A program made the translations under genes and the position numbers. From Cellulomonas fimi ATCC 484 (lineage in GTDB: Bacteria > Actinomycetota > Actinomycetes > Actinomycetales > Cellulomonadaceae): a DNA stretch of 64,000 nt. The notes beneath the pieces were generated by a model. The model did no database searches. It was not told the origin of the DNA and was given only the letters and a program-made list of their open reading frames with translations. Each line of letters opens with the position of its first letter. The first letter of the stretch is position 1. This document shows positions 2,040 through 59,010 of this stretch, piece by piece. The stretch is taken from assembly GCF_000212695.1 (NCBI RefSeq), contig NC_015514.1:558001-622000 (forward strand), written 5' to 3'.

Positions 2040-2044
2040 CGTTG

Positions 2045-4891
2045 GTGCTGCGCGAGGACGCGGGAGCCGCGGTCGATGAGCCGTGCCGTGTCGTCTGGGC
2101 CAAGTCGTGGCCGTACGACGTCCCTCCCTCGCACTGGGCGCCGCTGTGGCGGCACCTCGACGACACCGCCGACGTTGCCGGGCTGCTGTGGGACCACTGG
2201 CTGGCCGACGACATCCGGAGCCTGCTCGCAAGCGGGGTCCCGGGCGGAGCAGCGGGGGCCCGGCGGCTGGTGCGGTTCCTGGCCGGTGCCCACGACGTGG
2301 GCAAGACGACGCCGGCGTTCGCGTGCCAGGTGGCCGCGCTGAGCGATCGGATGACGCACGCCGGGCTCAGGCTGTCACCGGCCACGGTCACTGACCGGTC
2401 GATGTTGCGCCACGAGATCGCGGGCGCGGCAGCGCTCGACCGTTGGCTCACGACACGTACCGCGGCACCGCGGCAGGCACGCCGGCAGCTGACGGCCGTC
2501 CTGGCCGGGCATCACGGTGCCTACCCACCGCTGACTTCCGTCCAGGGTGCAGCCGCGCGACCGCACCTGTTCGGCGGCGGACAGTGGGAGACCGTGCGGG
2601 GCGTCCTGCTCGACCGCGCGGCCGCCAGGGCGGGGCTTGTGGCGGACTGGCCAGGATGGGCTGCTCTCCGGGTGCCTGGACCTGCGGGTGTCCTCCTGAC
2701 GGGTCTCGTGGTGATGGCCGACTGGATCGCGTCGTCGGACCACCTGTTCCCGCTCGACGACGTCGACACCGTCCCGGAGATCGAGCCCGTCTCGACCAGC
2801 GAGTCCGGGCGTGCGCAGCGCGCGTGGGCCCGCCTGCAGCTGAGTCCCCGCTGGCGGCCCCCCGCGCCTGAGGCAGCGCTGGCTGCTGTGTTCAGCGACC
2901 GCTTCCCCGGCGTAGGGGGCGCGCCGCACCCGGTGCAGGCCTCTGTGGTGGATGCGGCACGAACGATGCCGGCGCCCGGCCTGATGGTCGTCGAGGCGCC
3001 CATGGGATCGGGGAAGACGGAAGCGGCACTCATGGCGGCCGAGGTGCTGGCCCACCGCACGGGCGCGGCCGGGGTGTTCGTGGCACTCCCGACGCAGGCG
3101 ACGTCGGACGCGATGTTCGCGCGCGTGCGGGGCTGGTTGGAGCACCTGCCCGCGGACGACCACGCGCAGCACTCGCTCGCGCTCGTCCACGGCAAGGCCG
3201 CCCTCAACGACGACGTCGCGCACCTGCCGGTCTTGCGGGTTCGAGGTGTGCACGACGGGGACCGGACGCGGCCGACGGTGGTGCCGGCCGCCGACCTCTG
3301 GATGCGCGGGCGCAAACGGGCCGCGCTGGCGTCGTTCGTCGTCGGGACGATCGACCAGGTGCTGTTCGGCGCGCTGATGGCGCGGCACGTGATGCTCCGG
3401 CACCTCGCGCTGGCCGGCAAGGTCGTGGTCGTCGACGAGGTCCACGCCGCCGACACGTTCATGGCGACGTTCCTGGACCGCACGCTGGAGTGGTTGGGCG
3501 CCGAAGGCACGCCCGTCGTGCTGCTCTCCGCGACCCTGCCGTCGGTTCGCCGAGCCGAGCTGTACCGGGCGTACGAGAGCGGCCGGCGTCGACGGCTCAG
3601 CCGTGACCCTGACGCCGTCGACACGTCGGTCCTGGCAGGCGACATCGGCTACCCGGTCGTCGTGACGACAGGTGACGATGGCCCGGCGGTTACGACCCTC
3701 GACGACGCCGCCACGAGTACGCACGTGCAGGTCGTGCGCCTGGACGACGACCTCGATGCTGTGGGTGACCTGCTCGACGACGCGCTGCGCGACGGCGGGT
3801 GTGCCGGGGTCGTGCGCAACACGGTCGCCCGCGCCCAGGAGGCGGCCCGCCATCTCGAGGCCCGGTTTGGGCCGGAGGTCGTCACGGTCGCGCACGCGCG
3901 GTTCCTCGCCGCAGACCGGCGGGAGAACGACCTACGGCTGCTCGCCGAGCTCGGGCGCGACGGTGCCCGGCCGGACCGGCGGATCGTCGTGGGCACGCAG
4001 GTGCTGGAGCAGTCGCTGGACATCGACCTCGACGTGCTGGTCACCGACCTCGCGCCCGTCGACCTCGTGCTGCAGCGCATCGGGCGCCTGCACCGCCACC
4101 GGCGAGCCCACCGGCCCGATCCGGTCGCCACCCCACGGTGCTACGTCACGGGCGTGGACTGGGCTGCGGTGGTTCCGCAGCCCGTGCGCGGCAGCGTGCA
4201 CGTCTACGGGCGCTACGCGCTGCTGGCTTCCGCGGCAGTCCTCGGCCTGCACCTGGACGGTGCGCCGTTGCTCCTGCCGCTCGACATCGCTCGCCTGGTC
4301 CAGGCCGCGTACGCGCCCGACGCGGTGCCACCCGCGGGCTGGGAGGACAGCTGGGCGCAGGCCGCGACGCAGGAGCTGCGGCGCCACGACGAGCGGCGGC
4401 GGCGTGCGTCGACCTTTCTGGTCCACGAGCCTACCGACGGCGCCCTCTACGGCCTCTCGTCGGGTGGCGTCGGCGACCTCGACGAGGACTCCCCGCAGGG
4501 GCAGGCGTGCGTGCGCGAGAGCGGCGACAGCATCGAGGTCGTCGTGGTGCAGCGCGGAGGCGACGGCTCCGACCGCGTGCCCGACTGGGTTCCCGGGGGC
4601 GGCACTGCGCTGCCGTTCCCACACGTCCCGCTCGACGAGGCGGATGCGCGTGCCCTCGCCCGCTGCGCACTGCGACTGCCACCCGCCATGTCGCTGAACC
4701 CTGCGGTCTTCGACCGCGTCGTTGCTGATCTGGAGCGTGAGCGCTTCGAGGGGTGGGACGCCAGCCCTCTGCTCAAGAACCAGCTCGCTCTCGTCATCGA
4801 CGACGACCGCCGCGCCAGCGTCGCTGGGTTCGACCTGCACTACGACCGCCACCACGGGCTGACCGTCACGTCGGTCGCGTCGCCGTCATGA
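2045..4891 (+). CDS. cas3: CRISPR-associated helicase/nuclease Cas3 (type I-E)
   Basis: Cas3 is recruited by Cascade after R-loop formation, and nicks, unwinds and degrades the target DNA. The 948-residue product has an N-terminal HD nuclease domain (H in WRHLDD near 37, HD in GAHDVGK near 85, later HE in RHEIAG and HH in AGHHGAYP). A superfamily-2 helicase follows: Walker A APMGSGKT near 320, DEVH box near 463, LLSATLP, then a C-terminal helicase motif VLEQSLDIDLD and QRIGRLHRH. The length matches single-chain I-E Cas3. GTG 2045 is preferred over TTG 2042 because it sits 5 nt after GAGGGGG. The stop overlaps an ATG of the next frame (ATGA at 4888), so cas8e is coupled to it. No inactivating change is seen. 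Confidence 0.97.
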   Translation: MLREDAGAAVDEPCRVVWAKSWPYDVPPSHWAPLWRHLDDTADVAGLLWDHWLADDIRSLLASGVPGGAAGARRLVRFLAGAHDVGKTTPAFACQVAALSDRMTHAGLRLSPATVTDRSMLRHEIAGAAALDRWLTTRTAAPRQARRQLTAVLAGHHGAYPPLTSVQGAAARPHLFGGGQWETVRGVLLDRAAARAGLVADWPGWAALRVPGPAGVLLTGLVVMADWIASSDHLFPLDDVDTVPEIEPVSTSESGRAQRAWARLQLSPRWRPPAPEAALAAVFSDRFPGVGGAPHPVQASVVDAARTMPAPGLMVVEAPMGSGKTEAALMAAEVLAHRTGAAGVFVALPTQATSDAMFARVRGWLEHLPADDHAQHSLALVHGKAALNDDVAHLPVLRVRGVHDGDRTRPTVVPAADLWMRGRKRAALASFVVGTIDQVLFGALMARHVMLRHLALAGKVVVVDEVHAADTFMATFLDRTLEWLGAEGTPVVLLSATLPSVRRAELYRAYESGRRRRLSRDPDAVDTSVLAGDIGYPVVVTTGDDGPAVTTLDDAATSTHVQVVRLDDDLDAVGDLLDDALRDGGCAGVVRNTVARAQEAARHLEARFGPEVVTVAHARFLAADRRENDLRLLAELGRDGARPDRRIVVGTQVLEQSLDIDLDVLVTDLAPVDLVLQRIGRLHRHRRAHRPDPVATPRCYVTGVDWAAVVPQPVRGSVHVYGRYALLASAAVLGLHLDGAPLLLPLDIARLVQAAYAPDAVPPAGWEDSWAQAATQELRRHDERRRRASTFLVHEPTDGALYGLSSGGVGDLDEDSPQGQACVRESGDSIEVVVVQRGGDGSDRVPDWVPGGGTALPFPHVPLDEADARALARCALRLPPAMSLNPAVFDRVVADLERERFEGWDASPLLKNQLALVIDDDRRASVAGFDLHYDRHHGLTVTSVASPS

Positions 4892-4929
4892 CGAGGCGGG
4901 CCGCACCACTCACCGGGGAGAGAGGGAGC

Positions 4930-6570
4930 ATGGCGATGAGCGGCAGGTACTCGCTGATCGACGAGCCGTGGGTGCTCGTGCTGACGCAGGACGGGACGAC
5001 GGATGAGGTGTCGTTGCTCGACCTCTTCCGGCGGGCGCCGCAGATCCGGGAGATCGTCGGAGACATCCCCACGCAGGGCTACGCGGTCCTGCGCGTGGCG
5101 CTGGCCGTGCTGGCGCGCTCCGTCGGGGGGCCACGGACCACGGGCGACTGGGAACACCTCTGGGACGGGACTGCTCCGCCGATGGAGGCGATCGAGGCGT
5201 ACCTGCAGGAGCACGCTGAGCGGTTCGACCTGTTCCACCCGGAGACGCCGTTCTTCCAGGTGGCAGGCCTGCGCACCGCGAGGGACGAGGTCTTCGGGCT
5301 CGAACGGTTGATCGCCGACGTCCCCGCGGGTCACCCGTACTTCACGACGCGCGCCGGACGGGGGGTGCAGCGGATCAGCGCGGCTGAGGCGGCCCGGTGG
5401 CTGGTGCACGTGCAGGCGTTCGACGTGTCCGGGATCAAGTCCGGCGCGGTGGGTGACCCGCGCGTCACGGGGGGCAAGGGCTACCCGATCGGCCAGGGCT
5501 TCGCCGGTCACCTCGGCGGGCTGTCCGTCGACGGTGGCGACCTGTGGCGCACGCTCCTGCTGAACACGGTGCCGCTCGACCACCTCGGCCTGCAGCGCGA
5601 CGTTCGTGACCGGCCCGCCTGGGAGGCAGAGCCCTCTGGCCCTGCCGAGGCAGACGATGCAGCGGCCCGCCCGTACGGATCCCTCGACCTGTTCACGTGG
5701 CAGAGCCGCCGCGTGCTGCTGCACGGCGGTCCCGACGGTGTGACCGGCGTCCTCGTCGCCAACGGGGACAAGCTGACCCCGCAGAACCGGCACCGGCAGG
5801 AGCCGATGTCCGCGTGGCGGCGCAGCGAGCCGCAGCAGAAGAAGCTCGGGCTGCCCGTGGTCTACATGCCGCGCGAGCACGTACCTGGCCGCGCGGTGTG
5901 GCGAGGACTGGCTTCCTTGCTCCCGCTCGTCGCCCCGCGCGGCAAGGCCGACGGCGGTCAGCCGTTCGTCACGGCAGCCGTCGTGGAGTGGGCGGCCGAG
6001 GCCCTGGAGGCGACGGCGAGGGTCACCTTGCGGACGGCCGGCATGGTCTACGGCACGCAGAACGCGTCAGTCGAGGAGGTCGTCGACGACCGCCTCGTCG
6101 TGCCGGTGGCCCTGTTGTCCGAGGAGCACCCGGCTCTCGCCCAGGCGGCGGTCGACGCGGTCGACGCGTCCGAGGGTGCGGTGCGTGCCGTCGGCTTCCT
6201 GGCCCGTAACCTCGCGAGCGCCGCGGGCGCCAGGGAGCCCAAGCTCCTCGACGGTGCCCGCGATGAGGCGCAGCGTCAGGCGTACGCCGTTCTCGACGGG
6301 CCGTACCGGGCGTGGTTGGCCGGGCTCGACCCGAGCGTCGACCCGCTCGCCCAGCGCGAGGAGTGGCACCGGCAAGCCGCTGCACTCGTGCGGCGGGTCG
6401 GTGCCGAGCTCGTCGAGTCGGCCGGGCCGGACGCGTGGGTCGGACGCGAGGTCAGCATCGGCAGCGGCACCCGGCACGTCTCCACACCTGAGGCGGACAA
6501 GCAGTTCCGCCGAGCCGTCGACCAGGCGCTGCCCACCACTCTCACCACGCCCGAGGAGCCCGCAGCATGA
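4930..6570 (+). CDS. casA: Cascade large subunit Cas8e (Cse1/CasA)
   Basis: Large subunit of the I-E Cascade surveillance complex; it reads the PAM and recruits Cas3. The 546-residue product opens with the family hallmark SLIDEPWVLV and contains the expected stretches for Cse1, such as TPFFQVAGL, FDVSGIKSGAVGDPR and a C-terminal helical bundle. ATG 4930 follows a GGGAGAGAGGGAG ribosome-binding site and puts the LIDEPW motif at the usual distance. An in-frame ATG at 4888, overlapping the cas3 stop, would add 14 residues and is less likely. The gene lies between cas3 and cse2, the standard I-E order, and its stop overlaps the cse2 start. Confidence 0.95.
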   Translation: MAMSGRYSLIDEPWVLVLTQDGTTDEVSLLDLFRRAPQIREIVGDIPTQGYAVLRVALAVLARSVGGPRTTGDWEHLWDGTAPPMEAIEAYLQEHAERFDLFHPETPFFQVAGLRTARDEVFGLERLIADVPAGHPYFTTRAGRGVQRISAAEAARWLVHVQAFDVSGIKSGAVGDPRVTGGKGYPIGQGFAGHLGGLSVDGGDLWRTLLLNTVPLDHLGLQRDVRDRPAWEAEPSGPAEADDAAARPYGSLDLFTWQSRRVLLHGGPDGVTGVLVANGDKLTPQNRHRQEPMSAWRRSEPQQKKLGLPVVYMPREHVPGRAVWRGLASLLPLVAPRGKADGGQPFVTAAVVEWAAEALEATARVTLRTAGMVYGTQNASVEEVVDDRLVVPVALLSEEHPALAQAAVDAVDASEGAVRAVGFLARNLASAAGAREPKLLDGARDEAQRQAYAVLDGPYRAWLAGLDPSVDPLAQREEWHRQAAALVRRVGAELVESAGPDAWVGREVSIGSGTRHVSTPEADKQFRRAVDQALPTTLTTPEEPAA

Positions 6571-7217
6571 CCGAGACGAGGACCCCACCTGTCGACGACG
6601 ACCTCGAGGAGAGCACGACCCCGCCGCGTACCACCCGGGAGTTCGTGTCCTGGCAGGTGGGCAGGTTGCAGAGGGAGTACCTGCCGCCGGTCCAGAGCTC
6701 GTGGGCGCGGGCGTCGCTGGCCGAGCTGCGGCGCAGCCTCACCCAGCCGCTCGGCTCGTCGCCGGCGGTGCTCGAGTTCGTCGTCAACCCGTCGGCGCCG
6801 ACGACGGACGGGCCGGAGACGCCCGACGAGCGGTCGATCGTCACCGCCCTGGGGCTGTACGCGGTGCACCAGCAGTCGCAGTCGGTGCCGATGCACCTGC
6901 GCAGTGTGGGCTTCGGCGACGCCGTCGGGCGCATCCGCCTGCGTGACGGCGACGAGGTCCGCGGGGTCACCCGCCGGTTCCAGGCGCTCGGCACCGCCCA
7001 GACCTGGGACGAGCTCGTCCACCACGCCCGTGGCCTCGTGCAGCTACTGCGCGACCGGCAGCAGGGCTTCGACTACGGCCGCTTCGCGGAGGACCTCGTG
7101 CAGTTCCAGCACCCCGCCTCCGCGGACCGTGTCCGCCTGCGCTGGGGCCGCGCGTTCTACCGCGTCACCACGGCACCCACCACCAGCACGTCCACCACCA
7201 CCGCCGAGGAGCAGTGA
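6567..7217 (+). CDS. casB: Cascade small subunit Cse2 (CasB)
   Basis: Cse2 dimerises along the belly of Cascade and stabilises the displaced strand. The 216-residue product is mostly helical and includes the family-like stretch TALGLYAVHQQSQSVPMH and a basic C-terminal half with RRFQAL and LVQLLRDRQQGFDYGRFAEDL. The start ATG overlaps the cas8e stop (ATGA at 6567-6570) and the stop overlaps the cas7e start, so translation is probably coupled through the whole Cascade block. Cse2 is poorly conserved in sequence, so the call rests on both the motif-like segments and the position between cas8e and cas7e. Confidence 0.93.
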   Translation: MTETRTPPVDDDLEESTTPPRTTREFVSWQVGRLQREYLPPVQSSWARASLAELRRSLTQPLGSSPAVLEFVVNPSAPTTDGPETPDERSIVTALGLYAVHQQSQSVPMHLRSVGFGDAVGRIRLRDGDEVRGVTRRFQALGTAQTWDELVHHARGLVQLLRDRQQGFDYGRFAEDLVQFQHPASADRVRLRWGRAFYRVTTAPTTSTSTTTAEEQ

Positions 7218-8374
7218 TGTCCCGCACCATCGTCGAGGTCCACGCCCTGCAGACCGTCCCGCCGAGCAACGTCAACCGTGACGACACCGGCAGCCCCAAG
7301 ACCGCGGTGTTCGGTGGCAAGCGACGCGCCCGGGTGTCGTCCCAGGCCTGGAAGCGCGCGACCCGGGTGTCCTTCGGGACGTTGCTCGACCGTTCCGAGC
7401 TGGGGGTGCGGACCAAGCGAGTCGTCGAGCTGGTCGCCGCGCGCATCTGCGAGCTCGAACCGACGCTGAGCGAGTCGGCCGAGACCCTGGCCGCCGGGGT
7501 CGTCGCGTCGACCGGGCTCAAGCTCGAGAAGGCCAAGCGCGTCAAGGCCGGCGAGACCACGGAGCACCAGGAGACGGGATACCTCGTCTTCGTCTCTCGT
7601 CGGCAGGTTGACCTGCTGGCGGAGAAGGCCGTCGAGATCGCCGGTGCCGGCGACGTCACCGGCGCGCTGAAGGCACTCAAGGGCAAGGGCCTGCTCGACA
7701 CCGAGCATGCCGTCGACGTGTCGCTCTTCGGACGCATGGTCGCCGACGTCACCGACCTCAACGTCGACGCAGCCGCGCAGGTCGCGCACGCGATCTCGGT
7801 GCACGCGGTCGACAACGAGTACGACTACTTCACCGCGGTCGACGACGTGAAGCGCGACGCCACCGACGAGGACTCCGGCGCCGGGATGATCGGCACCGTC
7901 GAGTTCAACTCCTCGACGCTCTACCGGTATGCCACCGTCGACGTGAACCGTCTCCACGACAACCTCGGTGACGCCGAGGCGGCTCGTCGCGCGGTGCGCG
8001 CGTTCGTGCAGGCGTTCGTGGAGTCGATGCCGACGGGCAAGCAGAACACGTTCGCGAACCGGACGCTGCCCGAGGCGGTCGTGGTGACGGTCCGCGACAC
8101 CCAGCCGGTCAACCTCGTCGGGGCGTTCGAGGACGCCGTCACGGCTCAGGGTGACCGCACGCGCCTGCACGTCGCCGCGCACCGGCTCGGTGTGCGGGCC
8201 ACGGAGGTCGCCGAGGTGCTCGGGCAGGAGCCCGTCGCCGCCTGGGTCGTCGCGATCGGCGATGCGCGGGCGGGCCTGGAGGACTCCTGGGCCGATGCGG
8301 CGCGGACCACCCTCCCGGGGCTCTACGAGGCGGTAGGGGAGCTGGTCGCCGAGCGCCTCGGGGTGTCGGCATGA
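7217..8374 (+). CDS. casC: Cascade backbone subunit Cas7e (Cse4/CasC)
   Basis: Cas7e forms the six-subunit filament that holds the crRNA spacer. The 385-residue product starts with VEVHALQTVPPSNVNRDD and has the family signature GGKRRARVSSQAWKRA near residues 35-50. A central DVSLFGRM segment and FVESMPTGKQNTFANRT near 270 are also typical. ATG 7217 overlaps the cse2 stop (TGATG). GTG 7214, one codon upstream, is an alternative. The length is that expected for CasC. The stop overlaps the start of cas5e. Confidence 0.96.
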   Translation: MSRTIVEVHALQTVPPSNVNRDDTGSPKTAVFGGKRRARVSSQAWKRATRVSFGTLLDRSELGVRTKRVVELVAARICELEPTLSESAETLAAGVVASTGLKLEKAKRVKAGETTEHQETGYLVFVSRRQVDLLAEKAVEIAGAGDVTGALKALKGKGLLDTEHAVDVSLFGRMVADVTDLNVDAAAQVAHAISVHAVDNEYDYFTAVDDVKRDATDEDSGAGMIGTVEFNSSTLYRYATVDVNRLHDNLGDAEAARRAVRAFVQAFVESMPTGKQNTFANRTLPEAVVVTVRDTQPVNLVGAFEDAVTAQGDRTRLHVAAHRLGVRATEVAEVLGQEPVAAWVVAIGDARAGLEDSWADAARTTLPGLYEAVGELVAERLGVSA

Positions 8375-9096
8375 CGGTCCTCGTCCTCACGCTGGCCGGC
8401 CCCCTGCAGGCGTGGGGGAGCGAGAGCCGGTTCACCACGCGCGCCACCGACGACGCCCCGACCAAGTCGGGAATCGTCGGGCTGCTGGCCGCCGCGCAGG
8501 GACGCCGCCGCTCCGACTCCTTGGAGGACTACGTTGGGCTGCGGCTCGGTGTGCGGATCGACCAACCGGGACGGCTGCTTCGCGACTTCCAGACGGCGAG
8601 GTCGCTCGACGGGAGGCAGCCCATGCCCCTGTCGTACCGGTACTACCGGGAAGACGCCCGCTTCCTGGCCGTCGTGCACGCGGAGGACTCGCTCCTCGAG
8701 CTCTTCGTCGACGCACTACGACACCCGGTCTTCCCGCTCTACCTCGGGCGTCGCTCGTGCCCGCCCGCAGAGCCACTCGTCCCGCGACTGCTCGACGCCC
8801 CGCTCGGCATGGCACTGCGTGACGAGCCCTGGCGCGCGGCCCCGTGGTGGCGGCGACGCTGCGGCGACGAGCCGCCGATGCTCGAGTTCCGCGTCGACCG
8901 TGGCGCCGCTCCCGAGCTCGCAGACCGCGTCGACGGATCGACCGTGCAGCGCGACGAGCCCGTGTCCTTCGACCCCGAGCACCGCCAGTACGGGTGGCGC
9001 ACCGTCGACCTCGGAAGCGTCCCGGTGCCCGGGGCACCCGCACCCGCACCCTCCGGCGTGCGCCTCACACACGACCCGTTCGAGGCGGTGGACTGA
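8371..9096 (+). CDS. casD: Cascade subunit Cas5e (CasD)
   Basis: Cas5e caps the crRNA 5' handle within Cascade. The 241-residue protein starts with the family hallmark LTLAGPLQAWGSESRF and continues with RATDDAPTKSGIVGLLAAAQG, both typical of Cas5 RAMP proteins. A YLGRRSCPP segment follows near 130, also common in CasD. The ATG overlaps the cas7e stop (ATGA 8371-8374). The gene ends one base before the GTG of cas6e, leaving no room for an independent promoter. Confidence 0.96.
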   Translation: MTVLVLTLAGPLQAWGSESRFTTRATDDAPTKSGIVGLLAAAQGRRRSDSLEDYVGLRLGVRIDQPGRLLRDFQTARSLDGRQPMPLSYRYYREDARFLAVVHAEDSLLELFVDALRHPVFPLYLGRRSCPPAEPLVPRLLDAPLGMALRDEPWRAAPWWRRRCGDEPPMLEFRVDRGAAPELADRVDGSTVQRDEPVSFDPEHRQYGWRTVDLGSVPVPGAPAPAPSGVRLTHDPFEAVD

Positions 9097-9097
9097 C

Positions 9098-9790
9098 GTG
9101 TACCTCTCCCGCATCCAGCTCAACCCCCAGCGACGGGACGCTCGCAGGCTGCTGGGCAGCCCGCAACGCCTGCATGCCGCGGTGCTCGCGTCCTATCCGG
9201 ACGCTCCGACCGGTGCGCTCGACGGCGCCCCGCGGGTGCTGTGGCGCCTCGACGTCGAGCCCGACGCGCGTACCTTCCTGTACGTCGTCAGCCCCGACCG
9301 TCCCGACTTCGCGCACCTCGCTGAGCAGGCCGGGTGGCCGTCGACCGAGCGCGGCACGTCCAAGGAGTACGGGCCCTTCCTTGATCGCCTCGCACCGGGG
9401 CAGCGGTGGGCGTTCCGCCTCACCGCCAACCCCACCCAGTACGTCGTGCCTGAGCACGGCGGACGGGCCAAGCGGGTGGCGCACGTCTCCGTCCCGCACC
9501 AGGAGAAGTGGCTCACCGAGCGCGCCGAGTCTGCAGGCTTCCACATCGCCATGACGCCCCTGCCAGGCGTCGACAGCGATGTCGCCGCTCCGGTCCTTCG
9601 GGTGACGCGACGCACCACCCATCAGTTCTCGCGCCGCGGTGCGGACAAGCCCGTCACCCTCGCCGCCGCCCAGTTCGACGGAGTGCTGGTCGTCCACGAC
9701 GCCGACGTGCTTCGCCGCACCCTCATCGCCGGGATCGGCCCCGGCAAGGCGTACGGCTGCGGCCTGCTCACGCTCGCCCCCGTCTCGTGA
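9098..9790 (+). CDS. casE: crRNA-processing endoribonuclease Cas6e (Cse3/CasE)
   Basis: Cas6e cuts the repeat RNA at the base of its hairpin and stays bound to the 3' end of the crRNA. The 230-residue product starts YLSRIQLNPQRRDAR, as CasE does, with an early RLHAAVLASYPDAP segment carrying the histidine expected in the catalytic site. It ends with the RAMP glycine-rich loop GIGPGKAYGCGLL. GTG 9098 is one base after the cas5e stop and gives the standard length; no nearer ATG fits. The repeat in the array downstream has the CCCC-GCGTGC-GGGG hairpin this enzyme would recognise. Confidence 0.95.
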   Translation: MYLSRIQLNPQRRDARRLLGSPQRLHAAVLASYPDAPTGALDGAPRVLWRLDVEPDARTFLYVVSPDRPDFAHLAEQAGWPSTERGTSKEYGPFLDRLAPGQRWAFRLTANPTQYVVPEHGGRAKRVAHVSVPHQEKWLTERAESAGFHIAMTPLPGVDSDVAAPVLRVTRRTTHQFSRRGADKPVTLAAAQFDGVLVVHDADVLRRTLIAGIGPGKAYGCGLLTLAPVS

Positions 9791-9791
9791 C

Positions 9792-10745
9792 ATGACCAAG
9801 ATCCCCGGCGTCCGTCCGCCCGATCTGTCGGAGCTGACTCGCGCCCAGGACCGCATCACCTTCCTCTACCTGGAGCGCAGCGTCATCCACCGCGACTCGA
9901 ACGCGATCACGGCCACCGACGAGCGGGGCACCGTGCACATCCCCGCCGCCTCGCTCGGCGCGCTGCTGCTCGGCCCCGGAACGACCGCCAGCCACGCCGC
10001 GATGACCCTGCTCGCGGAGTCCGGCTCTACGGCCGTGTGGGTCGGTGAGCGCGGGGTCCGCTACTACGCACACGGACGCTCGCTCGCGCGCTCGTCCCGG
10101 TTGCTCCTCGCCCAGGCCGAGCTCGTCACCAACCAGTCGTCGCGCCTGCGTGTCGCCCGCCAGATGTACGCCATGCGCTTCCCCGGAGAGGACACCAGCG
10201 GCCTGACCATGCAGCAGCTGCGCGGTCGTGAGGGCGCCCGCGTGCGTCGCACCTACCGGGAGCAGGCCGCTCTTCACGGCATCGCCTGGGAGAAGCGTCG
10301 CTACGACCCCGACGACTTCACGTCGGGCGACCCGGTCAACCAGGCCCTGTCCGCCGCGACCACTGCCCTGTACGGCATCGTCCACGCCGTCGTCGTCGCC
10401 CTCGGCTGTTCCCCCGGCCTCGGCTTCGTCCACACCGGGCACGTGCGGTCCTTCGTCTTCGACATCGCCGACCTCTATAAGGCGGACTACGCCATTCCCT
10501 GCGCGTTCGAGACCGCCGCCGCGGGGTACAGCGACATCGGCGCCGAGACCCGCCGCGCCATGCGTGACCGTTTTCGCGACGGACACCTGCTTGAACGATG
10601 CAGCAGCGACATCCACAACCTCCTGCTTCCCGCCGAGCCGGACGAGGCGACCGCCGACCTCGGACCTGATGTCGTCCGCCTCTGGGACGGCGGAACCCGT
10701 ACCGTCGCCGGCGGCACGTCATGGGGCGACGAGGTGGACTGGTGA
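9792..10745 (+). CDS. cas1: CRISPR adaptation integrase Cas1 (type I-E)
   Basis: Cas1 is the integrase that, with Cas2, inserts new spacers next to the leader. The 317-residue protein keeps the metal-binding set of the family: E147 (GREGAR), H214 (GFVHTG) and D224/D227 (FVFDIADLYK), aligned with E141, H208, D218 and D221 of the E. coli enzyme. The I-E subtype features LERSVIHRD and ALLLGPGT are present. ATG 9792 is one base after the cas6e stop. Cas1 itself looks intact, unlike its partner cas2, whose GTG start overlaps the cas1 stop region. Confidence 0.96.
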   Translation: MTKIPGVRPPDLSELTRAQDRITFLYLERSVIHRDSNAITATDERGTVHIPAASLGALLLGPGTTASHAAMTLLAESGSTAVWVGERGVRYYAHGRSLARSSRLLLAQAELVTNQSSRLRVARQMYAMRFPGEDTSGLTMQQLRGREGARVRRTYREQAALHGIAWEKRRYDPDDFTSGDPVNQALSAATTALYGIVHAVVVALGCSPGLGFVHTGHVRSFVFDIADLYKADYAIPCAFETAAAGYSDIGAETRRAMRDRFRDGHLLERCSSDIHNLLLPAEPDEATADLGPDVVRLWDGGTRTVAGGTSWGDEVDW

Positions 10746-11078
10746 TCGTCCTCGTGCTGACCGCCTGCCCGGCCGGCCTGCGCGGCCATCTGACGCGTTG
10801 GCTCCTGGAGGTGTCCGCCGGTGTCTTCGTCGGCCACACCTCGACCCGCGTCCGCGACGAGCTCTGGAACCGCACTGTCGAGCTGATTCGGCCGCGGTCG
10901 CGCCCTTATGGTCATCACCGCCAACACTGAGCAACGCTTCGAGATCCGCAGCCACGGGCACCATTGGGTCCCCGAGGACATCGATGGCCTCACGCTCATG
11001 CGTCGGCCCGTGGACCCACCACCTGCCGACTCCAGCAGCAGCGGATGGAGCAACGTCTCCAGGCGGCGCCAGCGCTGA
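10742..11078 (+). pseudogene. cas2: cas2 (type I-E) interrupted by an apparent one-base insertion
   Basis: Cas2 forms the central dimer of the Cas1-Cas2 integrase. From GTG 10742 the frame reads IVLVLTACPAGLRGHLTRW and on to RDELWNRTVELI, a clear Cas2e N-terminus, then runs into nonsense and stops at 10930 after only 62 residues. The missing half is present one frame over: GRGRALMV, TANTEQRFEIRSHGHHW, EDIDGLTLMRRP, ending at 11078. Removing a single base at about 10889 (the C after ATT, codon 49) joins the halves with no gap and gives about 111 residues, the normal size plus a short Ser/Arg tail. It may be a real mutation, a sequencing error or a programmed +1 shift; no slippery site is obvious. 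ATG 10908 could restart the second half, but no ribosome-binding site is seen. Confidence 0.85.
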
Positions 11079-11135
11079 TCCTTCAAACCGATGCTGACTC
11101 GCCTTGTCCTGGCGTCATCACGCAGGTCAGGATGT
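11079..11135 (+). promoter_or_regulatory. CRISPR leader, proximal part
   Basis: Fifty-seven bases separate the restored cas2 reading frame from the first repeat. This is the leader end, because repeats here are perfect while degenerate repeats occur only at the far end, and because the repeat orientation (handle ATGAGCC before each spacer) implies transcription to the right. The segment is a little less GC-rich than its surroundings (TCCTTCAAACCGATGCTGAC at its start). No clear promoter hexamers are seen, so the array promoter may lie within the 3' end of cas2 or the array may be read from the cas operon. Confidence 0.6.
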
Positions 11136-14100
11136 GTCGTCTCCCCGCGTGCGGGGATGAGCCCCGGTTGCGGACGATCTCGAACCCATTCGTCGCGTCG
11201 TCTCCCCGCGTGCGGGGATGAGCCGCACCGCCGCATCATCTCCGTCGACGACGCCCTGTCGTCTCCCCGCGTGCGGGGATGAGCCGTGGTCGATGCGTTC
11301 GGTGGCGGGCATGCCGGCGGTCGTCTCCCCGCGTGCGGGGATGAGCCGGCCACCGACGGCACCGGCACCGCCGGGCAGGAGTCGTCTCCCCGCGTGCGGG
11401 GATGAGCCCGGCGGGGCGATCGGGACCTCACGCCAGCCCGCGTCGTCTCCCCGCGTGCGGGGATGAGCCGTTGTTGTGCGCGATCCGGCCACCCTGCACC
11501 GCGTCGTCTCCCCGCGTGCGGGGATGAGCCCCGAAGTCGATCGCGCGACCCCACCCGTGGTTCGTCGTCTCCCCGCGTGCGGGGATGAGCCCGGGGACCA
11601 GGCCGCCGCTGCGTTCGCACAGAAGTCGTCTCCCCGCGTGCGGGGATGAGCCCCGCAACCGGTGGGGTTCACGATCGACCCGCCAGTCGTCTCCCCGCGT
11701 GCGGGGATGAGCCCCGTTCGGAGGACCCGCAGGGCGTCGATGCCTAGTCGTCTCCCCGCGTGCGGGGATGAGCCCGGGCCGAGGGTCAGGACGACATCGC
11801 CGGGCGCGTCGTCTCCCCGCGTGCGGGGATGAGCCTGTGGCGTCCGGGTCCTCACCGTGCGGGTCGTAGTCGTCTCCCCGCGTGCGGGGATGAGCCCGAC
11901 CCGCCGACCTTGACCTTCCCGAGCCCGTGGTCGTCTCCCCGCGTGCGGGGATGAGCCCCACGCCGCGACGTCCTTGAGGATCGGCAGGCCGTCGTCTCCC
12001 CGCGTGCGGGGATGAGCCCCGGCCGATGACCTCCGTGATGGACCAGCCGTGGTCGTCTCCCCGCGTGCGGGGATGAGCCCTGGACACGGTGCGTAGCGTG
12101 CTGCGCGGGCGGGTCGTCTCCCCGCGTGCGGGGATGAGCCGGGCTTCAAGACGGTCCGGTGCCTCATCGAGGAGTCGTCTCCCCGCGTGCGGGGATGAGC
12201 CCCGCGACGGCGAGTGAGGTCTGTGCGACCATCGGTCGTCTCCCCGCGTGCGGGGATGAGCCCGACGACGGGCCCGGGGATACCCGTGGGTTCGAGTCGT
12301 CTCCCCGCGTGCGGGGATGAGCCGAACCACACGAGCCCGGCGACGAGCGCGGCCACGTCGTCTCCCCGCGTGCGGGGATGAGCCCCGCGCGACGCGCTCG
12401 TCGGTGACGCGGCGCAGGTCGTCTCCCCGCGTGCGGGGATGAGCCCTCGGAGAACCACGCGGGCTCCACGCCGAGGACGTCGTCTCCCCGCGTGCGGGGA
12501 TGAGCCCGTCGTGCGCAGCGTCTTCGGGGAGGGTGCGCAGTCGTCTCCCCGCGTGCGGGGATGAGCCCTGCGGCGGGTCTGGTGAGGCGCCCGACCCGGA
12601 GTCGTCTCCCCGCGTGCGGGGATGAGCCCGACGGCGTCGACGCGGCGGGCGCGTCACGGAAGTCGTCTCCCCGCGTGCGGGGATGAGCCCGGTGGTGGTC
12701 GCCATGGTGGCGGGTCTCCTGTGTCGTCTCCCCGCGTGCGGGGATGAGCCGTACGAGTTCCAGGGGCGCGGCGCGCCGCACTTGTCGTCTCCCCGCGTGC
12801 GGGGATGAGCCCCGTCCGCGCCTCCATGTCCACATCGATCCACTGTCGTCTCCCCGCGTGCGGGGATGAGCCCGACGCCGAGGCGCGTCGGCACCGCACC
12901 AAGTCGTCGTCTCCCCGCGTGCGGGGATGAGCCGGCGATCGAGAAGGCGCTCGACGCGCCGTCCGGGTCGTCTCCCCGCGTGCGGGGATGAGCCGGTCCC
13001 GCGCATCCACGACCTGCGGCACTCGCAGTCGTCTCCCCGCGTGCGGGGATGAGCCCGGCCACTGTCCGCCGTACTCGCGGGCGAACTGGTCGTCTCCCCG
13101 CGTGCGGGGATGAGCCGCAGTAGTCGCCGCCGGTGAGCCACCCGCGCGTGTCGTCTCCCCGCGTGCGGGGATGAGCCGAACAGGCCGTCGACCGGCTCCC
13201 GGACGCCGGCGTCGTCTCCCCGCGTGCGGGGATGAGCCTGACGACCTCCGCGCCGGTCGGCCGGTGTACTCGTCGTCTCCCCGCGTGCGGGGATGAGCCC
13301 CACACACGGGCTGCGGCGCTCACTGGGCACCAGTCGTCTCCCCGCGTGCGGGGATGAGCCGGCGTGGCTCACGACCACCGGGCCGCGCACAATGTCGTCT
13401 CCCCGCGTGCGGGGATGAGCCCGCGGTCGTGACCGGGAGGGTCAGGGTGTACTCGTCGTCTCCCCGCGTGCGGGGATGAGCCCGCGGCCGTGACACGCGA
13501 GGTGTTGAACGCGTTGTCGTCTCCCCGCGTGCGGGGATGAGCCGTCGAGCCCGAGTGAACTTCGCGGGCGAAGTCCGTCGTCTCCCCGCGTGCGGGGATG
13601 AGCCCCACTCGGTGTCGGAGTCCCCTGTGGAGTCGCCGTCGTCTCCCCGCGTGCGGGGATGAGCCCGGGTAGCGGTCGCGTGACGGTCCGACGGTGCGGT
13701 CGTCTCCCCGCGTGCGGGGATGAGCCGTTCGACCCGGGGTCGCCGATGCCGACCATGGGGTCGTCTCCCCGCGTGCGGGGATGAGCCCCGCGCGGCCATG
13801 TCCTCCGCGTTGAGGCCGGCGTCGTCTCCCCGCGTGCGGGGATGAGCCTCCTGGTCCGCACGGGAGCCCTGCGGCAGCACGGTCGTCTCCCCGCGTGCGG
13901 GGATGAGCCCCTGACCGCGGTACACCGCCGCAGCCGCCGGCAGTCGTCTCCCCGCGTGCGGGGATGAGCCCGCCGTGGAGGACGCACGCCAGGCCGCACG
14001 CCAGTCGTCTCCCCGCGTGCGGGGATGAGCCGGCGTCGCACTCGTCCGGGCAGGACTCGACCCAGTCGTCTCCCCGCGTGCGGGGATGAGCCGAGAACCC

Positions 14101-17100
14101 GACGCCCGCAGCCGAGTAGATGCCCGTCGTCTCCCCGCGTGCGGGGATGAGCCCAAGGGCGTCGTGCTCGGCGTCGTCGGCGTGATGTCGTCTCCCCGCG
14201 TGCGGGGATGAGCCCGACGCCGCGACCCACTCACACCGCCACCGGTGGTCGTCTCCCCGCGTGCGGGGATGAGCCCAAGGCCGCCCTGTTCGTGCTGCGC
14301 GGGCGGACGTCGTCTCCCCGCGTGCGGGGATGAGCCCGGCACAGTCACCTTGTACGTGCCCTCGCGGCGGTCGTCTCCCCGCGTGCGGGGATGAGCCGTG
14401 CTTGCTGTAGAGGTCGCGTGCGATGGGTTCGTCGTCTCCCCGCGTGCGGGGATGAGCCCGCCTCCAACTGCTCGTCGGACAGCTCCTGCGCGTCGTCTCC
14501 CCGCGTGCGGGGATGAGCCCGTCGACGTCCACCACACCAACACCTGGCCCACGTCGTCTCCCCGCGTGCGGGGATGAGCCGGCCACCGACGACACGGGCA
14601 CCGCCGGGCAGGAGTCGTCTCCCCGCGTGCGGGGATGAGCCCGGCGGCAAGGACTTCGCCGTGTTCGGCTACACGTCGTCTCCCCGCGTGCGGGGATGAG
14701 CCCGTCGCCGCGATCACGGTCCAGTCCCAGGTGTCGTCGTCTCCCCGCGTGCGGGGATGAGCCTGGCAGACGGCAGAGCGGTCGGCGCCGGCGTGTGTCG
14801 TCTCCCCGCGTGCGGGGATGAGCCCTGGCCCATGCTCACCGCCTCCCTTGGTCACTTGTCGTCTCCCCGCGTGCGGGGATGAGCCGCCGCGCCCACGCCG
14901 CGGCGACCCCGGGTCGCAGTCGTCTCCCCGCGTGCGGGGATGAGCCCCGGATCTGCCCGCCGACGACCGGCGTGTCACCGTCGTCTCCCCGCGTGCGGGG
15001 ATGAGCCGTCCTCCTCGATGGGGTCGACCCCCGGGGGGTGTCGTCTCCCCGCGTGCGGGGATGAGCCCGGTCCACGCACGGGCCGTTCGAGCCCGAGCCA
15101 GTCGTCTCCCCGCGTGCGGGGATGAGCCGGTCATCGGGGCCGTCACGATCGGTGCCGGGGCGTCGTCTCCCCGCGTGCGGGGATGAGCCCTCCGGCACCA
15201 TCATCACAGGATCCCGCCCCGGGTCGTCTCCCCGCGTGCGGGGATGAGCCGGTCGGGCGGGGGTGATCTGGGTCAGCGGTCGGGTCGTCTCCCCGCGTGC
15301 GGGGATGAGCCCACGACCCGGCCGCGCTTGGTGCGAGCCGGGAGGTCGTCTCCCCGCGTGCGGGGATGAGCCCGACGCGATCAGAGCGTCGGACTCCCAC
15401 GCGAAGTCGTCTCCCCGCGTGCGGGGATGAGCCCACGGTCACCGCGATCCCGTCGGCGCCGAGCTGGTCGTCTCCCCGCGTGCGGGGATGAGCCGACGTC
15501 GTCCGAGGAAGTCGCCCTGGCCTACGCCGTCGTCTCCCCGCGTGCGGGGATGAGCCCTGAGTGGGAGCCTCCCCACCCCTAGGGGGGAGGTCGTCTCCCC
15601 GCGTGCGGGGATGAGCCCTTGCGCTCGTAGGCGGCCTCGTCCCACACCTGGTCGTCTCCCCGCGTGCGGGGATGAGCCCGCGGCCGACGCCACGAACCCG
15701 CGCAAGGACATGTCGTCTCCCCGCGTGCGGGGATGAGCCGGTCTGAACTGCGTTGAGTAGTGCTGCGATGGCGTCGTCTCCCCGCGTGCGGGGATGAGCC
15801 CCCGTGGTGGTACTACAAGGGCACCGTCTGCGCGTCGTCTCCCCGCGTGCGGGGATGAGCCCACCGATGACGCCGCGGCGGAGTCGGCCGCGTGGTCGTC
15901 TCCCCGCGTGCGGGGATGAGCCCACCGTGGCCCCGTGCGCTGTGCCTGCCCTGTGGTCGTCTCCCCGCGTGCGGGGATGAGCCCTGGAACCACTGGTGGA
16001 AGATCCACGCCCCGTCGTCGTCTCCCCGCGTGCGGGGATGAGCCGAAGATCCGCTCCTGCGTCGCCCGGTCCCGGTAGTCGTCTCCCCGCGTGCGGGGAT
16101 GAGCCGTCCCCAGCGAGCCCCGGGAGACCGACGTGGTCGTCGTCTCCCCGCGTGCGGGGATGAGCCCACCGCGACGATCCCGAACAGCGCACGGCCCATG
16201 TCGTCTCCCCGCGTGCGGGGATGAGCCCTCCTCGTGGTCGATCGACTGGCGTACCCGGTCGTCGTCTCCCCGCGTGCGGGGATGAGCCCGCTCCGACCTC
16301 AGCCGGGCGCGCCCACTCGTAGTCGTCTCCCCGCGTGCGGGGATGAGCCCGAGATCCGGTCGCCTGCTAACGACGCGGAGAAGTCGTCTCCCCGCGTGAG
16401 GGGATGAGCCGCGCTGGGAGCGCGCGGTGGGCCCGTGGCGGGTGTCGGTTCCCCGCGTGCGGGGATGAGCCCGTGGCCAGGCGCTTGAACACCGTGGTGC
16501 CGGCGTCGTCTCCCCGCGTGCGGGGATGAGCCCTCCGACGTCCCGGCGGGCGGCACGCCGGGGTGGTCGTCTCCCCGCGTGCGGGGATGAGCCCGACTGA
16601 GCCGTCAGCGTCGACCCGTCCACCGCGTCGTCTCCCCGCGTGCGGGGATGAGCCCGACTGGCACCTGCGGGAGGCGTCGCAGCGGCCGTCGTCTCCCCGC
16701 GTGCGGGGATGAGCCCTACGAGGTCGGCACCACGCAGCCGACGAACCGGTCGTCTCCCCGCGTGCGGGGATGAGCCGGCCGCCGTGCTCGGGGTGACCGG
16801 GGTCATGACGTCGTCTCCCCGCGTGCGGGGATGAGCCGTTCGACTCGAAGATCCTGACCGCCCTGCAGAAGTCGTCTCCCCGCGTGCGGGGATGAGCCCG
16901 TCCCCGCAAGCGGGGCCCCTCGCGAGCTCGAGTCGTCTCCCCGCGTGCGGGGATGAGCCGGGGAACCGGGTCACGGTCCGGGGGCGGCTGGTGTCGTCTC
17001 CCCGCGTGCGGGGATGAGCCCAAGGGCCGGGACGTCGCGTACTTCCCTGGCGACTCGTCTCCCCGCGTGCGGGGATGAGCCGTCGTCCAGGGTCGCGGCG

Positions 17101-17625
17101 AACGCGGCCGTCTGGTCGTCTCCCCGCGTGCGGGGATGAGCCCGAGTACCTCGCGACGACGACCGGCTCGAACAAGTCGTCTCCCCGCGTGCGGGGATGA
17201 GCCGGCGCCCTGTCGGACCTGTCGCGCGTGGAGTCCGTCGTCTCCCCGCGTGCGGGGATGAGCCCACCGTCTTGAGGAAGTCCCACATCGACGCGAAGTC
17301 GTCTCCCCGCGTGCGGGGATGAGCCCGCCGGAGACGCCTGCATCGACTGCTGCCCGTGGTCGTCTCCCGCGTGCGGGGATGAGCCCGGCGACGCGTCGTC
17401 GGCGACGATGTCACCCTCGTCGTCTCCCCGCGTGCGGGGATGAGCCGCCGAGCACGTCAAAGGCCAGCGACGTCATGCCGTCGTCTCCCCGCGTGCGGGG
17501 ATGAGCCCAACAAGGCGTGGCGGTCGGCCGAGTCGGTCCGGTCGTCTCCCCGCGTGCGGGGATGAGCCGAAGGGCCGCAGGCCGCGCGGTCAAGGGGCGG
17601 TGTTCTCCCGTGTGCCGGGTGAGCC
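11136..17625 (+). CRISPR. Type I-E CRISPR array, 106 clear repeats plus one degenerate
   Basis: Hand count: 106 repeats of 28 nt starting every 61 nt from 11136 to 17541, then a degenerate 24-nt copy at 17602-17625, giving 106 spacers. The repeat is GTCGTCTCCCC, loop GCGTGC, then GGGGATGAGCC; the 4-bp C/G stem (extendable) and ATGAGCC handle match the I-E consensus in the same orientation as E. coli. Spacers are 33 nt except three: 34 nt at 11286 and 15495, 32 nt at 15008. Only four clear repeats vary: C to A in the hairpin at 16383, TC to GT at positions 5-6 at 16444, first base changed at 17054, one C deleted at 17359. All lie in the distal fifth, so the leader is on the left. The base after each repeat is C (68), G (34) or T (4), never A. 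Confidence 0.99.
17602..17625 (+). repeat. Degenerate terminal CRISPR repeat
   Basis: At the position expected for the next repeat stands GTTCTCCCG, TGTGC, CGGGTGAGCC, a shortened copy with several deletions and changes. Loss of identity at the leader-distal end is normal and fixes the direction of the array. The flanking spacer (17569-17601) is of ordinary length. Confidence 0.85.
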
Positions 17626-57918: not shown

Positions 57919-59010
57919 ATGGACGACACCGCACCCGTCGACTGGCCCGCCGCCGCACGCGTCGCGGGCCGCCTGTCCCGGCCCGGTCCCGCGGCGTCGC
58001 GGGCCGAGCTCGACGACCTCGTCGCGGGCCTGCGCGACGCCGCCCACCGTGCCGGCGGCCACGCGTCCCGGATCACCGGGCTCGCCGCGGTGGACGGCGC
58101 CGCGCCCGAGGACGTCTCCCGCGTCCTCGTCGTCGACCGCCCGCGCTGGGCGCTCGCCAACACCGAGATGTTCGCGCGTCTCGCAGCGCCGCTCGGCCGC
58201 CGGCCCGACGGCACCCCGACGCCCCTGCCGCCGGGGGCGCGCACCGTCGGGGCCGCGCAGGTGGGCAGCGTCCTCGCGCTGCTGTCGGGCAAGGTCCTCG
58301 GCCAGTTCGACCCGTTCACCGCCGCACCCGGCGAGCCCGGACGGCTGCTGCTCGTCGCGCCGAACGTGCTGCACCTCGAGCGCACGCTCGGCGTCGACGC
58401 CGCCGACTTCCGCCTGTGGGTCGCGCTGCACGAGCAGACCCACGCGCTGCAGTTCGCCGCCGCGCCGTGGCTCGCCGACGTGATCCGCACCCGGTCGGCG
58501 GAGCTCCTCGCCGACGTCGCCGCGACCGTGCCCGGCGTCGACGGCACGCGCGACCCCGACGCCCCGGGTGCGCTCGACCTGCTCGGCCGTGTCGCCAAGG
58601 CGCTGCTCGGTCCCGAGGGGGGCGGCGGTGTGCTCGACGTCCTCACCGAGCGGCAGCGCGCAGTCTTCGAGGAGGTCGGGGCCGTCATGGCGCTGCTCGA
58701 GGGGCACGCCGACGTCTCGATGGACCAGGTCGGCCCCCGCGTCGTCCCCACGGTCCGGACGATCCGCCGCGCGTTCGAGGCCCGCCGGGACGAAGGTGCC
58801 GCCGCGCGGGGGTTCGAGCGCGTGCTGCGCCGGCTGCTCGGGCTCGACGCCAAGCTCGCCCAGTACCGCGACGGCGCCGCGTTCGTCCGCGCCGTGCAGG
58901 GCACCGTCGGGCGGGACGGGTTCAACGCCGTGTGGTCCGGCCCCGACGCCCTGCCGAGCCCCGCCGAGATCGCCGACCCCGCCACCTGGGTCCGCCGCGT
59001 CCACGGATGA
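57919..59010 (+). CDS. Zinc-dependent metalloprotease (TIGR03624/DUF2342 family)
   Basis: The 363-residue product belongs to the zincin family often found between dacB and tilS in actinobacteria. It has the HExxH zinc site in [13 protein letters not shown] and a late [19 protein letters not shown] segment with the further glutamate and histidine. The opening [13 protein letters not shown] and [12 protein letters not shown] are typical. ATG 57919 lies 6 nt after TACCGT (57907-57912) and has no ribosome-binding site, so it is probably leaderless. Its biological substrate is not known. Confidence 0.9.

Follow-up and report, generated by a model that had tools for sequence, protein, structure and literature searches.

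A probable recent loss-of-function frameshift in cas2e of the type I-E CRISPR locus of Cellulomonas fimi ATCC 484

The type I-E locus of clustered regularly interspaced short palindromic repeats (CRISPR) in Cellulomonas fimi ATCC 484 carries a cas2e gene that is divided between two reading frames by a single excess base. The host genome is one contig of 4,266,344 bases (NC_015514.1), and the locus lies in the 64,000-nucleotide stretch analysed here (the window, bases 558001-622000). In the deposited sequence cas2e is split, the split is absent from the same place in the relatives surveyed, and no second cas2 was found. We consider these observations to be best explained, with a probability of about 0.78, by a loss-of-function frameshift, recent and limited to the strain or species, in the single cas2e gene of the locus. 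This is most likely an ordinary recent gene breakage and not a new control mechanism. A preliminary, sequence-only reading of this DNA had described Cas1, the six interference genes and the array as normal, and this holds: PADLOC models recognise all seven cas genes besides cas2, and the array has 106 repeats (Table 1).

The position of the break can be defined closely. From a GTG codon at 10742, a frame of 62 codons encodes residues 1-49 of Cas2e and 13 unrelated residues, and ends in a TGA stop at 10928-10930. An open +1 frame begins inside the span of this first frame, runs to 11078 and holds the rest of Cas2e from 10890; the two frames meet at 10888/10890, and the excess base lies within 10886-10889. 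PF09707 has two matches genome-wide, both at this gene: one of 65.6 bits covers profile positions 2-51 and one of 27.7 bits covers 45-86, each above the curated cut-off of 24.7 bits. A profile was also made from the listed homologues, 119 of the 120 after a sequence of fewer than 105 residues had been set aside; it scores 94.6 bits over positions 1-50 and 80.2 bits over 50-112, and the two matches meet one frame apart. TIGR01873, with a cut-off of 33.15 bits, scores the N-terminal half at 43.1 bits and the joined read-through at 55.0 bits; the C-terminal half alone was not reported by this model at an expectation value (E) of 0.001, and scores 52.9 bits with a PADLOC Cas2e model. Reading ATTC (10886-10889) as a single step gives a joined Cas2e of 111 residues with 782 homologues; the best among the 120 listed shares 82% identity from end to end (E 1.7e-57). 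The two-frame Cas2e match is not a product of chance. Both the arrangement of a 62-residue N-terminal half and a C-terminal half in adjacent frames, and their reunion on removal of one base near 10889, had been claimed from the sequence alone, and both are borne out by these matches.

No single uninterrupted frame spans the whole Cas2e fold. Residues 2-87 of the joined protein align to E. coli Cas2 structures such as 4p6i. Everything past about residue 49 is lost through the break, and with it the segment that matches structure-chain residues from the low fifties to 90; in E. coli it is the C-terminal strands of Cas2 that contact Cas1. The genome offers no second cas2, as PF09707 matches only at the window gene and the Cas2 family PF09827 not at all, and a comparison of the cas1-cas2-leader segment with plasmids produced no match.

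The split is not conserved. Among 81 Cellulomonas genomes, seven hold cas2e and the same seven hold cas1e over the cut-off; cas2e is full length and in a single frame in five of these. A single full-length frame was likewise found in 17 of 19 holders in the family (221 genomes) and in 58 of 59 holders in the order (396 genomes, drawn from a larger group). Since the family and order sets share three genomes, their union comprises 75 holders, and the comparison with related strains that the sequence-only reading had proposed thus finds cas2e unsplit in 73 of 75, the exceptions being C. fimi and Cellulomonas uda. None of the other 74 is broken at the C. fimi position (73 are full length and C. 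uda is broken elsewhere). A second survey was anchored on Cas1 and therefore blind to the state of cas2; it took the best 80 of 482 confirmed loci, which partly overlap the genomes of the first. Here cas2 was counted as full when a single match began no later than position 6 of the 117-position profile and ended no earlier than position 85. This was the case in 78 of 80 loci, the broken ones belonging to C. uda and Actinokineospora iranica.

Cas1 itself is nearly full length and in one piece in 128 of 134 rows from both surveys, duplicates included, and split or short in six (L012, L023, L031, L093, L120 and L123). A second Cas1-like match in one genome (L139, G054) fell below the cut-off and was left out of the cas1 and cas2 tallies. 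Because cas1 too can be split or short, loss of an adaptation gene, cas1 or cas2, is a low-frequency event that is not specific to cas2. In L012, L031 and L123 the two-piece cas1e match stands beside a full-length cas2e, and these are possible cas1 breaks.

An error of sequencing or assembly, with a living strain that has an intact cas2 and an ordinary working type I-E system, is an unlikely account of the break, though one of appreciable weight. Indels in 454 data usually fall in homopolymers, and the break site lies outside any homopolymer, with no run longer than two bases. The identical C. fimi Cas1 protein is recorded in four contigs (longest 4,266,344 bases), and the 62-residue truncated Cas2 (P0122) is found in as many, again with a longest contig of 4,266,344 bases; these are presumably the same contigs. 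An intact C. fimi Cas2 was not seen among the 120 listed of the 782 matches to the joined protein, since no match there exceeds 82% identity. The main text of the genome paper has no mention of CRISPR, frameshift or pseudogene (PMC3544764).

Substitution patterns bear on the same question. Compared with a relative (G079), non-synonymous (dN) and synonymous (dS) divergence is 0.079 and 0.72 for cas1, 0.059 and 0.50 for the N-terminal half of cas2, and 0.083 and 0.95 for a 39-codon core of the C-terminal half, and both halves therefore show a dN/dS near 0.1, like cas1, as if nothing were broken. Against a more distant genome (G021), the N-terminal half gives dN 0.153 and dS 0.47, and the C-terminal core dN 0.199 and dS 0.76; protein identity of the core drops from 86% to 69% in this comparison. 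In neither comparison is dN/dS higher in the C-terminal half than in the N-terminal half, although the counts are small. As no relaxed constraint is apparent in the C-terminal half, the break is either recent on the scale of these comparisons or absent in life.

Several points weigh against a recent frameshift mutation. The constraint on the C-terminal half, which resembles that on the N-terminal half and on cas1 in the G079 comparison, would fit an error equally well. The four contigs with the truncated Cas2 may be copies of one assembly. The ATCC 484 assembly combined 454 and Illumina data, and its error rate is stated only as below 1 in 10,000 (PMC3544764). Furthermore, that the C. fimi locus interferes at all is an assumption. 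Taken with the evidence above, a true mutation stands well ahead of a sequencing error.

A coarse scan for coding signal, made over the window together with 20 further 20-kb stretches, picked out four places, and gives no usable error rate because cas2 itself was not among them. Two of the four were compared with NCBIfam: one had no family, and the other is a phosphoenolpyruvate synthase remnant. In the latter (L156 12800-14530, at about 3,312,800-3,314,530 of the genome), positions 497-787 of 798 of the synthase are spread over two frames, with their junction close to six consecutive C, behind a piece of a short-chain dehydrogenase. By its sequence, this is a decayed region and not a control for error.

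It might also be supposed that Cas2 still works as two chains, with the C-terminal half re-initiated by translational coupling at the ATG at 10908 and pairing with the N-terminal half. This ATG sits 22 bases ahead of the final base of the TGA that closes the first frame, as coupling might have it. Set against this, no Shine-Dalgarno-like sequence is evident by eye just upstream, 13 foreign residues end the N-terminal half, and a two-chain Cas2 at the C. fimi position occurs in none of the other surveyed holders; we regard a working split protein as improbable.

Least probable of all is a programmed +1 ribosomal frameshift, raised in the sequence-only reading as a possible new control of adaptation; it would act through how much Cas2 is made, and conserved halves in adjacent frames might seem to favour it. 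We rejected it as very unlikely because the arrangement is in none of the other 74 union holders nor in the 80 Cas1-anchored loci, there is no zero-frame stop at the break site, the following codon (CGG) is common at 31 per 1000 in six cas genes, and folding of the 81 bases downstream is equalled or bettered by 156 of 200 shuffled sequences (z-score +0.78). The ATT codon at the break is used once in the 2,674 codons of the six cas genes (a total counted from coordinates). A literature search for 'programmed frameshift' with cas2 and CRISPR found no paper.

Under the favoured reading of a recent loss-of-function frameshift, translation would yield a 62-residue product without the second half of the Cas2 fold. 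Such a product would leave the Cas1-Cas2 integrase unable to form, and because of this no new spacers would be gained, while interference by Cascade and Cas3, guided by the 105 spacers already stored, may continue. The locus therefore likely keeps its spacers, may use them and adds none. In a type II-C system, that of Riemerella anatipestifer, deletion of cas2 abolished acquisition (PMC6008519). The picture of a frozen memory put forward in the sequence-only reading is retained as the best explanation of a split cas2 beside a whole cas1; the arrest of acquisition is something we infer, and the error alternative stays beside it.

Apart from the cas2 break, the locus closely resembles other type I-E loci of Actinomycetota. 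It shares their gene order of cas3-cas8e-cse2-cas7e-cas5e-cas6e-cas1-cas2-array, seen also in G079 and C. uda, together with a 28-base repeat, spacers mostly of 33 bases and a leader element beside the first repeat; it differs in having cas2 in two frames, where five of the seven Cellulomonas holders have one full-length frame. A similar state is already in print for Propionibacterium freudenreichii JS7. The type I-E system of that strain is entered with 65 spacers (our reading of a table column) and 'No cas2', only a cas2 fragment being present, and its authors raise the possibility that the system was inactivated by the incomplete cas2 or by insertion of a transposase (PMC5644110). Both are actinobacterial I-E loci with a defective cas2 beside stored spacers, but in C. 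fimi the defect is a single surplus base and every other cas gene is whole. A phrase search of the literature for a broken cas2 returned only off-topic work, and in a search for C. fimi with CRISPR none of the 15 matches listed, of 26, was, judged by title, about the C. fimi CRISPR locus.

A parallel among the surveyed genomes is that of Cellulomonas uda NBRC 3747 (L052, the same genome as G076), which shares the genus, the locus type, a whole cas1 and a frame-split cas2. Its break lies near residue 21-22, as against residue 49 in C. fimi, and the frame change is of the opposite sense; the two breaks are for these reasons independent. The C. uda cas2 occupies L052 4909-5246 (also L008 and L021), in an I-E locus with about 51 repeats. 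Its Cas1 (P0153) is recorded as an identical protein in three contigs (longest 1,296,815 bases), so another C. uda assembly probably exists. The best match of the C. uda C-terminal part among the 120 listed Cas2 matches is only 70.8% identical, and hence no intact C. uda Cas2 was seen there. In A. iranica (L120 4956-5297) an I-E cas2 is likewise broken beside an array, but the cause is an in-frame stop at roughly two thirds of its length and not a frameshift, and cas1 is matched in two pieces.

These cases raise the idea that Cellulomonas lineages repeatedly stop acquisition through breaks in cas2 only, while cas1, the genes for interference and a long array are retained, and that a fixed memory is thereby preferred to an open one in this genus. 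On this view, C. fimi and C. uda would count as two independent cases. Within the union, cas2 is broken in 2 of 7 Cellulomonas holders versus 0 of 68 others (p about 0.008, calculated by hand); without C. fimi, the index case, the figures are 1 of 6 versus 0 of 68 (p about 0.08). The broken cas2 of A. iranica, outside the genus, weakens the case further, and we hold recurrent shutdown to be distinctly unlikely. As a lead only, the Cas1-bearing records of C. iranensis and C. hominis are absent from the 120 listed Cas2 matches, where a C. bogoriensis record is present; both species would be candidates for further cas2 loss, bearing in mind that 120 of 782 matches are listed and that other long Cas1-bearing contigs are also missing.

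Turning to the array, repeats 1-86 are identical and changed repeats (87, 88, 98 and 103) occur towards the far end, and for this reason the leader was placed beside cas2. The CAGGTCAGGA element beside the first repeat is also found in several relatives. In a comparison for which 135 loci were tried, duplicates included, an exact AAGTGA-type element was present in 65 of 116 leader rows and not in the C. fimi leader. The variant AAACCGA occurs also in L055, L122 and L125, and on this ground the idea of leader decay in C. fimi was dropped.

The 105 spacers are all different, mostly of 33 bases. Spacers 4 (11348-11380) and 57 (14581-14613) differ at only two positions, and because of this near-identity the same target family has probably been sampled twice, once near the leader. 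Compared with 50,697 phage records, the array gave only weak spacer matches among the 40 listed of 358 matching records; the best of those listed (E 1e-3, 39 bases at 89.7%) falls in a Propionibacterium phage terminase gene. Three spacers were scanned against viral_contigs, spacer 1 through its first 28 bases and spacers 4 and 57 through a shared pattern, and no exact match was found. Self-targeting was also considered: the best non-self match in the C. fimi genome (46 bases, 87%, E 1.7e-7) extends into the repeat and has 5 mismatches in 30 spacer bases by eye, and it and weaker matches were taken as chance.

The top-ranked phage record matches the array through CRISPR-like repeats of its own, and phages can carry mini-arrays. 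Saccharomonospora phage PIS 136 (JX006077.1, L160 1343-1753) has an unannotated, intergenic mini CRISPR array of four I-E-type repeats, the last cut short, and three 33-base spacers, which is preceded by a leader resembling those of actinobacterial I-E loci and followed by an inverted repeat. Among the 50,697 phage records, these spacers have only weak matches outside the phage itself.

The features of the locus are collected in Table 1; the start codon of cas3 is provisional, hence its length is that of the listed frame. Elsewhere in the window, a 519-residue open reading frame upstream of cas3 (330-1889) contains a P-loop-like PKGGAHKTT and has, by eye, the look of a MinD/ParA-type ATPase, and a transfer RNA gene for aspartate (tRNA-Asp) lies at 58713-58793.

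Table 1. Features of the C. fimi type I-E locus, in window coordinates.
Feature	Position	Strand	Evidence or remark
cas3	2042..4891	+	949 residues as listed; PADLOC Cas3e E 2e-209
cas8e (casA/cse1)	4888..6570	+	PADLOC Cas8e E 1.1e-115
cse2 (casB, cas11e)	6567..7217	+	PADLOC Cas11e E 2.2e-33
cas7e	7217..8374	+	PADLOC Cas7e E 3.4e-119
cas5e	8371..9096	+	PADLOC Cas5e E 4.6e-50
cas6e (start codon provisional)	9092..9790	+	PADLOC Cas6 E 1.3e-61, residues 4-230
cas1e, whole, 317 residues	9792..10745	+	PADLOC Cas1e E 2.3e-134; TIGR03638 match without internal stops
cas2e, N-terminal part	10742..10930	+	Cas2e residues 1-49, 13 wrong-frame residues, TGA; profile matches
Stretch with one-base excess	10886..10889	+	no homopolymer longer than 2 bases
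cas2e, C-terminal part, +1 frame	10890..11078	+	first ATG at 10908; profile matches
Leader, cas2 to first repeat	11079..11135	+	CAGGTCAGGA element adjoins repeat
CRISPR array	11136..17568	+	106 repeats of 28 bases, 105 different spacers

The break reveals no new mechanism, and the C. uda case is the sole sign of generality, in small numbers. For studies of native adaptation in C. fimi, cas2 deserves checking first. If real, the break gives the type strain of a well-used cellulolytic species a natural defect of cas2 only, with cas1, the leader, all 105 spacers and the full set of interference genes still in place, and C. fimi would offer a ready background for examining the function of Cas1 without Cas2 and the protection given by stored spacers.
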